The notes beneath the pieces were generated by a model. The model saw only the letters and a program-made list of their open reading frames with translations, did not search any database and was not told the DNA's origin. From Knoellia sinensis KCTC 19936 (GTDB taxonomy: Bacteria > Actinomycetota > Actinomycetes > Actinomycetales > Dermatophilaceae), in assembly GCF_000768705.1 (NCBI RefSeq), contig NZ_AVPJ01000006.1:186001-250000 (forward strand): a stretch of DNA of 64,000 bases, in the 5' to 3' direction. A program made the position numbers and the translations under genes. Shown here piece after piece: positions 91-63,999 of the stretch (the stretch's first letter is position 1; the number at the start of each line of letters is the position of its first letter).

Positions 91-804
91 ATGAGCCAGC
101 CACGCAACGTCCTCGTCACCGGCGGCAACAGGGGCATCGGTCAGGCCATCGCAGAGGCGTTCGTCGCGGCTGGAGACACCGTCGTCGTCACCTCCCGAAG
201 CGGCGAGGCACCCGACGGACTCACTGCAGTCACCTGTGACGTCACTGACACCGCGTCCGTTGATGCGGCGTTCGGCGCGGCGGAGGAGATCTTCGGGGGT
301 CCTGTCCACGTGCTCGTCGCCAACGCGGGGATCACCAAGGACGGCCTCCTCATGCGCATGAGCGACGACGACTTCGACTCCGTCATCGATACCAACCTCG
401 CGGGCGCCTTCCGGTGCGTCCGGCGTGCCAGCACCGGGATGATCAAGGCCCGCAACGGCCGGATCATCCTCATCTCCAGTGTGGTCGGCCTGTATGGAGG
501 CCCCGGTCAGTCCAACTACTCCGCGAGCAAGGCTGGACTCGTCGGCCTGGCTCGCTCGGTGACCCGAGAACTCGGCGGTCGAGGAATCACCGCCAACGTC
601 GTGGCACCCGGATTCATCGAGACGGACATGACCGCAGCGCTCCCGGAGGAGACCCAGAAGGCCTACAAGGCCGGCATACCGGCTGGTCGTTTTGCGCAGG
701 CCACCGAAGTGGCGGCTGCGGTGCGCTTCCTCGCGTCCGATGACGCGGCCTACATCTCGGGTGCCGTCATCCCGGTTGACGGCGGCCTCGGCATGGGCCA
801 CTGA
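91..804 (+). CDS. fabG: 3-oxoacyl-ACP reductase, MabA/FabG type
   Basis: A 237-residue short-chain dehydrogenase that reduces 3-oxoacyl-ACP with NADPH in fatty acid elongation. The Rossmann motif TGGNRGIG lies near residues 10-17. The catalytic triad is visible as Ser130 (in ISSVVG), Tyr143 and Lys147 (YSASK). Length and motifs fit the family. The next gene, 47 bases downstream, is an InhA homologue, reproducing the mabA-inhA pair of mycobacteria, which argues for FabG rather than an unrelated SDR. Residues 188-199 hold an AGIPAG stretch whose Ile is an ATA codon inside a copy of the dispersed CGGCATAC motif. Confidence 0.9.
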
Positions 805-851
805 CACTTCCCATTACATCCCGCGTCACCACTCGAAGGAGAACGACCCCG

Positions 852-1610
852 ATGCTGCTCGAGGGCAAGAAACTGCTCATCACGGGAGTCCTCATGGACT
901 CCTCGATCGCCTTTCACGTTGCCAAGCTGGCGCAGGAGCAGGGGGCCGAGGTCGTGCTCACCTCCTTCGGCCGCACCATGAAGATCACGTCGACGATCGC
1001 GAAGCGGCTGCCGTCCACGCCACCCGTGGTCGAGCTCGACGTCACGGACACGGAGCACTTGGCCAGCCTCGCCGAGCGCCTCGGCGAACACGTCGACCAT
1101 CTCGATGGGGTCCTGCACTCCATCGGCTTCGCCCCGCAGGGTGCCTTCAACTTCCTCGAAGGCACCTTCGAGGACGTCTCGACAGCGATGCACGCATCGG
1201 CGTACTCGCTCAAGTCCCTGGCCGTGGCGGCGCTCCCGCTGATGAGTCCTGGAGCATCGGTGGTCGGGCTGACGTTCGACGCCAAGTTCGCCTGGCCCGT
1301 CTACGACTGGATGGGCGTTGCCAAGGCAGCCTTCGAGTCCACCAACCGCTACCTCGCACGCGACCTGGGGCCGAAGGGCGTGCGGTGCAACCTCGTGGCG
1401 GCCGGGCCGATCAGGACGACCGCGGCGAAGTCGATCCCGGGCTTCCAGACCTTCGAGGATTCCTGGGGCGAACGTGCACCCCTGGGTTGGGACGTGAACG
1501 ACGCAGTCCCCGCCGCAAAGGCATGTGCCGCGTTGCTGTCCGACTGGTTCCCCGCGACGACGGGCGAGATTGTCCACGTCGACGGCGGCGTACACGCGAT
1601 GGGCTTCTGA
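852..1610 (+). CDS. inhA: enoyl-ACP reductase (NADH), InhA/FabI type
   Basis: A 252-residue enoyl-[ACP] reductase that carries out the last reductive step of the FAS-II cycle. The N-terminal stretch (VLMDSSIAFHVAKLAQEQGA) closely matches InhA [21 protein letters not shown], and HSIGF, YDWMGVAKAAFES (catalytic Tyr/Lys region) and AAGPIRT are conserved. A Shine-Dalgarno AAGGAG at 836-841 precedes the ATG. It probably shares a transcript with fabG. Known family knowledge: this is the isoniazid target class. Function is secure; InhA versus generic FabI naming is a matter of convention. Confidence 0.93.
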   Translation: MLLEGKKLLITGVLMDSSIAFHVAKLAQEQGAEVVLTSFGRTMKITSTIAKRLPSTPPVVELDVTDTEHLASLAERLGEHVDHLDGVLHSIGFAPQGAFNFLEGTFEDVSTAMHASAYSLKSLAVAALPLMSPGASVVGLTFDAKFAWPVYDWMGVAKAAFESTNRYLARDLGPKGVRCNLVAAGPIRTTAAKSIPGFQTFEDSWGERAPLGWDVNDAVPAAKACAALLSDWFPATTGEIVHVDGGVHAMGF

Positions 1611-1626
1611 GCCCGTCTCGACGAAC

Positions 1627-62492: not shown

Positions 62493-62534
62493 CCTCGACA
62501 CCCATCCACGTACGACTCTCCGAAAGGACCTGTC

Positions 62535-62921
62535 ATGGGTTTTGACCCCGCCACCACCAAGCCCGAGATCGACTTCCCGGGCGACGCGGCTCCTACCGAG
62601 CTCGTCATCGAGGACATCACCGTCGGCGACGGCGCGGAGGCCACGGTCGGCTCGACCATCTCGGCGCACTACGTCGGCGTCGCCCACTCGACGGGCGAGG
62701 AGTTCGACGCCTCCTGGAACCGCGGTGCGCCGCTGGACTTCCGCCTCGGCGTCGGCCAGGTCATCCGCGGTTGGGACGAAGGCATCGTCGGCATGAAGGA
62801 GGGCGGCCGTCGTCGCCTTCTCATCCCGCCGACCTACGGCTACGGCGACCGCGGCGCCGGCGCCGTGATCAAGCCGGGCGAAAGCCTGATCTTCGTCGTG
62901 GACCTCGTCAGCGTGCGCTGA
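62535..62921 (+). CDS. small FKBP-type peptidyl-prolyl isomerase
   Basis: A 128-residue cytosolic FKBP (HYVGVAHSTGEEFDASWNRG, VGQVIRGWDEGIVGMKEGGR, IPPTYGYGDRGAG) with the full set of aromatic active-site residues. Ribosome binding site GAAAGGA before the ATG. Actinobacterial genomes often carry this gene near pafA. Its last 14 bases overlap the convergent DUF3866 gene. Confidence 0.93.
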   Translation: MGFDPATTKPEIDFPGDAAPTELVIEDITVGDGAEATVGSTISAHYVGVAHSTGEEFDASWNRGAPLDFRLGVGQVIRGWDEGIVGMKEGGRRRLLIPPTYGYGDRGAGAVIKPGESLIFVVDLVSVR

Positions 62922-63999
62922 TCCGCTCCGCCGCGCAGACCCCTGCGACGGCGCTGACGACGAACCCGGCGAGGTCCTCCTCGAGGCCACGACCCATCGT
63001 GGAGAGCTTCACCGGACTCTGACGCAGTGCGTCCAGCAGACCTTCCGTGCCGATCTCGACGATGTCGAGATCAGCACGGCTGGTTTCGGAGAGTTTCGCC
63101 GCCTGGGTGCGGACCAGTGCGGCCATCTCGCCGCCGCTGGCCGGGACCGGCACGATCGCGGGGGAGAGCAAGGCCTTCCCGTATGCCGTCGTGCTGTGGT
63201 GCGAGATCCCGCGGTGCCGCGATCTCGGGTCGGCTCCCGAGACGCGGAGAGCCGCGATGCTCGTGCCACCCAGGACGTGTGTGGCGTGGAGGACGTCGGC
63301 CACCGCCACGCCGGAGTAGCCCCACGGTGTTCCCGTCCCGACGTTGCCGGGGCCCTGGACGACAACAGTGACGTCGGCACCCACGACGTGGCGCGCCGCG
63401 AGCAGACCGCTGTGCAGGGACACCGCTTCATGGTCACCACCGAAGGCCTGGCCGACCGTGATGGACGCCGCGATCCAGCCGGCCTCCTTGAGTCCGGCCA
63501 CGGCACGGGAGAAGGCGAGGGGGAGTGCGCCGCCGTCGGTCATGACGTAGGCCACCTGCGCGTCTGGCTGCGTGCGTCGGACACCGGCGATGATCGCGGG
63601 GAGTGCGGAATGCAGGTCAGCCACGACGACGGGCATGGCCTCCAGCGACTCGGCGTCCCGCAGCACGTGATGGTGGAGGCTGTCCTGCTCGTCGACGGCG
63701 AGGAACATCTGTTGCTGAGGGGTATAGCGCGCCTTGACGATGTGCCCGGGCGAGTCGGGTGCGTCCGCTGGGAGTCGGTCCGGCACCGCGACGATGAACG
63801 CAAGGCCGCCAGTTCCCAAACCCTTGAGGAGCGCCGAGGCGTTGAGGACGACCCGATCCCCGGGCTCGGGACGCCCGACCATGCCCGTGTAGGCGAGGGC
63901 CCTCACCTCGGAACTGGTGTCCTCAGCGGAAGTCAGCCTCACGGCATACTCCACCGCCCCCGGCCACTCACGAATCTGTCGGTCGACCACACCCTCGCG
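62908..63999 (-). CDS. DUF3866 protein, 5' end probably beyond the window
   Basis: At least 360 residues of a DUF3866-family protein (RALAYTGMVGRPEPGDRVVL, IVKARYTPQQQMFLAVDEQD, VMTDGGALPLAFSRAVAGLK, QGPGNVGTGTPWGYSGVA). Function unknown. A GTG exists at 63990, but the frame stays open to the edge and the residues before it (Arg-Glu-Gly) continue the family's N-terminal GVV...REWPGA pattern, so the true start likely lies outside. No membrane segments are obvious. Confidence 0.85.
   Translation of the reverse strand, partial: REGVVDRQIREWPGAVEYAVRLTSAEDTSSEVRALAYTGMVGRPEPGDRVVLNASALLKGLGTGGLAFIVAVPDRLPADAPDSPGHIVKARYTPQQQMFLAVDEQDSLHHHVLRDAESLEAMPVVVADLHSALPAIIAGVRRTQPDAQVAYVMTDGGALPLAFSRAVAGLKEAGWIAASITVGQAFGGDHEAVSLHSGLLAARHVVGADVTVVVQGPGNVGTGTPWGYSGVAVADVLHATHVLGGTSIAALRVSGADPRSRHRGISHHSTTAYGKALLSPAIVPVPASGGEMAALVRTQAAKLSETSRADLDIVEIGTEGLLDALRQSPVKLSTMGRGLEEDLAGFVVSAVAGVCAAERISAR

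Follow-up and report, generated by a model that had tools for sequence, protein, structure and literature searches.

Sequence-specific DNA uptake is known only from Neisseriaceae and Pasteurellaceae, according to a 2025 paper. The DNA uptake sequence (DUS) of Neisseriaceae is GCCGTCTGAA and occurs in dialects (PMC3630211; PMC5031613), the uptake signal sequence (USS) of Pasteurellaceae is AAGTGCGGT (PMC7811141; PMC1939737; PMC2346458), and Knoellia sinensis KCTC 19936 possesses a word different from both, CGGCATAC. This 8-mer is scattered over genes and intergenic regions of a 64,000-nucleotide stretch of contig NZ_AVPJ01000006.1 (positions 186,001 to 250,000, forward strand), which as a whole is called the window. 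By analogy with DUS and USS, CGGCATAC, here mostly with A in front, is probably a self-recognition tag for natural DNA uptake that evolved independently in this actinobacterial family, which we take to be Dermatophilaceae in GTDB terms.

With DUS the word shares the short and non-palindromic form, a copy number of the order of 1,500-2,000, inverted pairs that may act as terminators, and dialects that follow clades; DUS is reportedly under-represented in the accessory genome (PMC3630211; PMC5031613), and CGGCATAC is scarce in low-GC bins. As in USS, there are a thousand-odd copies on both strands, extragenic enrichment and close pairs of opposite orientation, the latter acting as terminators in the case of USS. 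The average spacing is about 1 kb for USS and 1.8 kb for CGGCATAC, and uptake of USS is reportedly orientation-independent, its genomes showing even spacing without orientation bias, whereas same-orientation neighbours of CGGCATAC are scarce (PMC7811141; PMC1939737; PMC2346458). In contrast to the DUS hosts, the source is a high-GC actinobacterium with weak PilB matches only and a Flp/Tad pilus. USS carries a long AT-rich flank, which has no counterpart around CGGCATAC in a sample of 456,949 bases of the source genome (the window and the adjoining 40 kb, together with 340 kb from contig 1 and 13 kb from contig 15; hereafter the 457 kb sample).

The window contains exactly 38 copies, 18 on the forward and 20 on the reverse strand, spanning 672 to 63,949, against 1.6 expected under an order-3 Markov model. 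The first-pass annotation had counted about 38 on the same span and called them strongly over-represented, and both statements hold. Together with ACGGCATA (24 copies, 0.57 expected), CGGCATAC forms the top two over-represented 8-mers of the window in this model; it does not appear in the top 20 under the highest-order Markov model, as its constituent 7-mers are likewise enriched. The source genome (3,987,063 bases in 61 contigs) possesses 2,485 copies, 1,234 forward and 1,251 reverse, whereas the same string read backwards, used as control, occurs 33 + 35 = 68 times, so the excess stands genome-wide. At least one copy is present in 93% of 5-kb fragments. The 457 kb sample has 254 copies, with an order-3 expectation of 4.1 when the motif is masked. 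The core is as sharp as had been claimed, and so is the preference for an extra A in front: the preceding base is A in 59% and T in 1% of the 254 sites. Local strand balances along 340 kb of contig 1, taken in consecutive 85 kb blocks, are 22/18, 30/28, 21/18 and 25/27, and neither these blocks nor the genome-wide strand totals show orientation bias or polarity of the replication type. Polar motifs of the FtsK-orienting (KOPS) or architecture-imparting (AIMS) type are thereby ruled out, which bears out the case made in the first-pass annotation against Chi-, KOPS- and AIMS-type motifs. The same applies to the highly iterated palindrome HIP1, a palindromic octamer, since CGGCATAC differs from its own reverse complement.

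The balanced orientation recorded earlier for the window is correct for the totals but understates the arrangement, as neighbours alternate: 180 adjacent pairs in the source sample are oppositely oriented and 71 have the same orientation (binomial p about 4e-12). The alternation is drawn from the source sample, because shared orthologous sites make pooled data non-independent. The pooled set (698 sites) combines this sample with those of five congeners (G703, G150, G122, G704 and G702), while a sixth, G308, was counted and not pooled. In the pooled set, same-orientation pairs occur at 0.00, 0.66, 0.31 and 0.37 of expectation at distances of 0-60, 60-250, 250-500 and 500-1,000 bp, and opposite pairs below 1 kb, summed, at or above expectation. 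Outward (-+) pairs are 3.1-, 1.7- and 2.2-fold enriched in the three bins under 500 bp and stand at 0.80 at 500-1,000 bp; inward (+-) pairs reach 0.97, 0.71, 0.74 and 1.23 over the same four bins. At 1,000-1,500 bp same-orientation pairs are at 0.71 of expectation, but orientation ceases to matter there, because opposite pairs are equally low; farther out all values are near 1.

Pairs of CGGCATAC 60-1,000 bp apart comprise 80 of same and 226 of opposite orientation, i.e. a same-strand share of 0.26 (80/306), while 36 control words of similar abundance have a share of 0.54 +/- 0.04 over this range, the lowest being 0.47. When orientations were permuted with the gene strand kept, 0 of 500 permutations were as low at 60-500 bp and 0 of 500 at 500-1,000 bp; the same procedure yielded no same-strand deficit in three bins from 1 to 6 kb. 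Alternation as a by-product of gene orientation is ruled out by this permutation and the control words. Smaller samples of congeners have same versus opposite counts of 89/169 (G703), 15/32 (G704), 12/26 (G702), 20/30 (G122) and 22/33 (G308), and those of other genera 24/53 (G269), 10/23 (G296) and 8/17 (G223). For the dialect words described below, alternation is clearer in G300 (24 same, 43 opposite) and, under 1 kb, in G298 (3, 13). Orientation alternation is not mentioned for DUS or USS in the sections of the literature covered (PMC7811141, PMC1939737, PMC3630211, PMC5031613, PMC2346458).

Genes in the sample were called with a simple codon-usage caller, so that gene ends are approximate. 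By these calls, genes contain 181 of the 254 copies (80 sense, 101 antisense) and intergenic regions 68, while 5 straddle gene edges. Coding copies use all six reading registers, two of which are favoured: 64 copies encode Ala-Tyr and 88 Tyr-Ala (152/181). In 18 copies the codon read is ATA or GTA, both of which are rare at such GC content. Genic copies in permissive registers are another trait that the word has in common with DUS and USS. Shuffling synonymous codons sample-wide leaves 14.2 +/- 3.4 coding copies (100 runs, maximum 25), and shuffling within genes 20.9 (maximum 33). Codon bias therefore cannot explain the excess, as the shuffles leave 14 of 181 coding copies, and the possibility raised in the first-pass annotation, that codon bias and Ala-Tyr or Tyr-Ala dipeptides account for it, is thereby removed.

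Intergenic copies make up 27% of the total (68/254) within 14% of the sequence. They are densest after stop codons. The 8,808 bp that follow a stop codon within 100 bp without adjoining a start contain 27 copies (3.1/kb). Stretches close to a stop as well as a start (7,021 bp) contain 15, those preceding a start alone (12,417 bp) another 15, and the other 33,479 bp, far from gene ends, 11 (0.33/kb). All 13 pairs less than 60 bp apart in the 457 kb sample are inverted. Eleven of them are intergenic, each located 12-40 bp past the stop codon of a neighbouring gene. On folding, they yield stems with 8 to 18 base pairs, which extend past the word in 10/11. Judged from sequence and folding, these inverted CGGCATAC pairs appear terminator-like, and DUS and USS terminators have the same inverted-pair arrangement after genes (PMC3630211; PMC7811141).

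Between 20 and 36 of the 38 window sites can be aligned in each of six congeners with 80-83% nucleotide identity. Fully conserved among these are 28/35, 23/32, 24/35, 28/36, 22/32 and 17/20 (69-85%), against 23-28% for control 8-mers of equal GC count, which were matched for GC and not for codon position. Individual copies of CGGCATAC persist across species. Within the source sample, the seven of 90 5-kb bins with a GC content below 65% have 0.09 copies/kb, compared with about 0.6/kb elsewhere. The two poorest stretches of contig 1 extend over 35.6-56.2 and 218-240 kb; ten of their 20 called genes were examined. Three of these have no Pfam match, and the matches of the other seven include glycosyltransferase, polysaccharide lyase, sugar-nucleotide dehydrogenase and epimerase, and asparagine synthase. 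Polysaccharide-type gene clusters are often acquired.

The family survey covers 119 genomes of 53 genera, and in it the density of CGGCATAC is bimodal. It amounts to 221-1,356 per Mb in 61 genomes (30 of the 53 genera), at most 55 in 50 genomes and 77-144 in eight; genomes with at least 200 per Mb are called motif-rich, and the word is thus abundant in related genomes as well. Tallies are given as density per Mb, because the read-backwards control is inflated where the dialect extends as CGGCATACGGC (G223, genus g3), the backwards string CATACGGC there becoming part of the motif. In 184 genomes from other families of the order, CGGCATAC reaches at most about 64 per Mb, with the control equally high. 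In a phylum sample of 396 genomes, the word outside the family ranges from about the level of its control to some 4 times that level, the largest clear excess being that of G584 (161 versus 30). Among 13 named genomes, a metagenome-assembled genome (MAG) of Nocardioidaceae (L020) has 402 copies versus 50 of the control. This MAG may be mixed with foreign contigs, and its excess and that of G584 may represent mixed bins or independent cases.

Three dialects, CGGCATAC, CGGCATCC and CCCCCTTCG, sort by genus over the 119 genomes. CCCCCTTCG occurs in 1,311-1,939 copies with nearly equal strands (386-618 per Mb) in all seven genomes searched of the genera g5 and g8, and at 27 per Mb or less in the other 112 genomes of the family. 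The Janibacter loci L012 (Janibacter limosus) and L013 contain 13 and 6 copies of CCCCCTTCG; the J. limosus genome of L012 and G273 have identical CGGCATAC counts (15/17/9/16 in 3.4 Mb), and g8 is probably Janibacter. CGGCATCC reaches 686-1,248 per Mb in g86 (two genomes), g94 (one) and g108 (four), over a median background of 175 per Mb, the next-highest density being 382 per Mb in G211. Genus g108 comprises two mixed genomes, with 1,217 and 1,189 copies of CGGCATAC beside 2,195 and 2,099 of CGGCATCC, and two shifted ones, with 361 and 288 beside 4,480 and 3,619. Coding copies of CGGCATCC number 60 in G300 (7.7 in shuffles) and 30 in G224 (6.8), and those of CCCCTTCG, an 8-mer of CCCCCTTCG, 41 in G297 and 22 in G298 (6.4 in shuffles). 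Flanks differ as well, G being preferred in front of the word in G269 and G262. In G223 (L116-L120) CGGCATAC is situated within a long consensus, gaGCcCAGCGGCATACGGc, with 20 of 30 copies intergenic; this may be a separate, longer repeat from which CGGCATAC arose or which acquired it. Two further dialects are possible, CGCCGTAC in G270 (39 copies versus 10.7 expected; 14 same, 32 opposite) and CCGCATAC in G227 (13 versus 1.7). CGGCGTAC (G242, G279) and CCGCATCG (G259) are not called dialects, because they are only about 4-fold over the synonymous null and their alternation is unclear. G231 is motif-rich by its whole genome (221 per Mb), and its 40 kb sample contained three copies and no standout word.

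Micrococcus luteus, of the same GTDB order as the source family, offers the nearest comparison for the machinery. Like the source, this actinobacterium has ComEA, ComEC and a Flp pilus, which it employs for competence, and no uptake sequence is described for it in the text covered (PMC6370729). In the source genome a comEA-like gene (SLBB and helix-hairpin-helix) adjoins comEC (Competence and metallo-beta-lactamase domains; L098). Its Flp/Tad pilus locus (L236) comprises two Flp pilins, TadE, RcpC/CpaB, a CpaE-like ATPase, a TadA-type ATPase and two T2SSF (TadB/C-type) proteins, of which one carries a VWA domain. A type IV pilus was rejected as predictor of the motif, as the PilB model is strong (E 1e-158 or lower) in 4/119 genomes only, the source genome not among them; no genome of the family exceeds the cut-off and the source genome has weak matches only. 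The presence of comEC and comEA was dropped for the same purpose, being nearly universal. Over curated cut-offs, comEC is found in 13 and comEA in 56 of the 119 genomes. Weak or fragmentary comEC matches are seen in the motif-poor G270, G247, G218, G259, G221, G263 and G288, but also in the motif-rich G237, G287 and G239, and this pattern was consequently not used as a predictor either. The match is missing in three incomplete genomes, G235, G238 (motif-rich) and G283. In the one-contig, motif-poor genome G270 it is split over two frames (C1:107117-108804, i.e. L121:9117-10804), which may reflect a pseudogene or faulty assembly; the genus mates G231 and G294 are motif-rich.

As an uptake tag, the word would be bound by a putative surface DNA receptor of a route from the Flp/Tad pilus via ComEA to ComEC, and uptake would start there. 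Tagged DNA would enter and recombine more often than untagged DNA, so that tagged alleles would spread by molecular drive until nearly every few-kilobase fragment has a tag. The alternation suggests that a tag acts unidirectionally over about 1 kb: each copy would serve one flank, a further copy of the same orientation inside this distance would contribute little, and one of opposite orientation would serve the other flank. In Gram-positive uptake (Bacillus, Streptococcus) the DNA is cut close to where it is bound, and a single strand is threaded in from there; if a tag fixed the side that is threaded, neighbours of the same orientation would be redundant and those of opposite orientation unconstrained. 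From these patterns we infer uptake as the function, a receptor, molecular drive, and polar action behind the same-strand exclusion. We lean slightly towards a more specific proposal, in which CGGCATAC represents a third, independent family of uptake sequences that would be the first for Actinomycetota and for Gram-positive bacteria as a whole, comprises several dialects within a single bacterial family, and has each tag serve one side over about 1 kb and so leave an alternating footprint.

Some of these patterns would also follow from a Chi-like recombination site, at which a nuclease acting on double-strand break ends, other than RecBCD, is switched by the word in one orientation, and even spacing per orientation guards both break ends. 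Equal protection of both DNA ends fits the exclusion of same-orientation copies below 1 kb and the independence of the two orientations, and the word is non-palindromic and chromosomal; nevertheless we regard this explanation as unlikely. There is no orientation bias along 340 kb, and in our judgement hairpin pairs after genes, the dialect switch of g108 and a different word in two genera would be unexpected. Furthermore, none of the five own-genus genomes searched gives a match to recC (TIGR01450), and the 48/119 genomes of the family that do give one include motif-rich and motif-poor ones, both tagged (e.g. G262, G269) and untagged (e.g. G273, G298). The Chi of RecBCD, an over-represented non-palindromic octamer like CGGCATAC, is ruled out by the lack of a recC match in these five genomes, and it differs from CGGCATAC, which lacks strand polarity. 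Less probable again is a strand-specific repair mark, a methylation or nicking site within about 1 kb of a mismatch that is needed separately on each strand: it would confine exclusion to same-orientation copies with a reach of about 1 kb, as observed, but the patchy distribution and the change of word inside one family would demand repeated replacement of a housekeeping system. The uptake tag is favoured since a recombination or repair signal does not easily explain dialects and stem-loops. Slightly behind even the repair mark ranks the site of a nucleoid-associated or domain-organising protein, with which the high copy number on both strands and the conservation of sites agree, whereas the same-orientation exclusion and the stem-loop pairs after stop codons would be without evident reason. 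Xenogeneic silencers, moreover, are expected to bind low-GC DNA, and low-GC bins are spared here. Among the three readings left open by the first-pass annotation, an uptake sequence is thus favoured, short of proof, over a nucleoid-protein site and a methylation-linked motif. Codon or dipeptide bias, residue of a sequencing adapter or an assembly artefact has a negligible chance of being the cause. The CGGCATAC core is contained in an Illumina primer and most coding copies encode the two dipeptides named above, but the synonymous shuffles exclude the bias, and adapter contamination is ruled out by a single 15-base adapter match in the 457 kb sample and by orthologous sites kept in six other genomes; the share of intergenic copies likewise disagrees with codon bias or artefact.

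Several observations weigh against an uptake tag. The comEC and comEA genes do not separate tagged from untagged genomes, because they are nearly universal in the family (matches at E <= 0.001 in 116/119 and 114/119 genomes, motif-poor ones included). No convincing substitute word was found in 40-100 kb samples of the motif-poor G281, G222, G260, G286, G263 and G243. Alternation is weak in the congener G150 (21 same, 25 opposite), in G262 of another genus (36, 45) and, for dialect words, in G224 (20, 22) and G297 (23, 28). Core variants with a single mismatch mostly occur at about the expected frequency, some being 2- to 4-fold up; motif density is not significantly correlated with GC over all bins (rho 0.14, p 0.18); and a 5'/3' position bias inside genes is absent for sense copies and weak for antisense copies (p 0.01).

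No earlier report of CGGCATAC or of an actinobacterial uptake word was found among the matches listed in open-licence full-text literature, in agreement with the first-pass annotation, which knew of no description. If the uptake tag is real, it may be the first such system outside the two Gram-negative families. A Gram-positive third case would imply that such recognition evolves repeatedly, and would point to unsuspected naturally transformable actinobacteria. It would also provide a genetic handle, as the right word could be added to donor DNA. The dialect switch in g108 and the alternation of orientation would permit quantitative tests of molecular drive and uptake polarity.

The copies in the window are exact matches, their gene context being taken from the same gene caller. 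Sense copies on the forward strand are located at 672-679 (gene 91-804), 1751-1758 (gene 1639-3837), 6077-6084, 14032-14039, 26960-26967, 28512-28519, 35309-35316, 47909-47916, 56970-56977 and 60988-60995, and on the reverse strand at 12238-12245, 15185-15192, 21826-21833, 44760-44767 (methionine synthase gene metH), 54247-54254 (opposite copy 160 bp away) and 63181-63188. Antisense copies are found on the forward strand at 11571-11578, 38919-38926, 54407-54414 and 63942-63949, and on the reverse strand at 4373-4380 (gene 3928-5388), 13775-13782 (opposite copy 257 bp away), 19418-19425, 27683-27690, 31504-31511, 32694-32701, 32788-32795, 50223-50230 and 55272-55279; those at 32694 and 32788 form a close same-strand pair, an exception to the alternation. 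A reverse-strand copy at 47597-47604 is close to the 5' end of the metH gene call. Intergenic according to the caller are 21370-21377, 25231-25238 and 52475-52482 on the forward strand and 38558-38565, 39582-39589 and 55114-55121 (same-strand copy 158 bp away) on the reverse strand. The remaining two, 59288-59295 (reverse) and 59320-59327 (forward), form the left and right arms of the hairpin 59288-59327, an intergenic inverted pair of terminator-like appearance with a 40-base stem-loop of -27.6 kcal/mol as RNA.

A second dispersed element, mostly intergenic and REP-like (resembling repetitive extragenic palindromes), consists of inverted CGACTTTGTGCCC(C/G)..TTGGGACAC with half-copies starting 50-65 bp apart. 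It is absent from the window and has 18 half-copies in the 457 kb sample; examples in the source genome are C1:111791-111865 (L086) and C15:26534-26608 (L098). In 12 mycobacterial loci among L007-L023, AGGCGTTG is 6-fold above the Markov expectation and 2.4-fold above synonymous shuffles, with close neighbours in the same orientation three times and in the opposite orientation 11 times. The window furthermore contains a cyanophycin synthetase gene at 6314-9385 (-), and the protein encoded nearby at 1639-3837 (+) resembles the C-terminal half of this enzyme, below the family cut-off.

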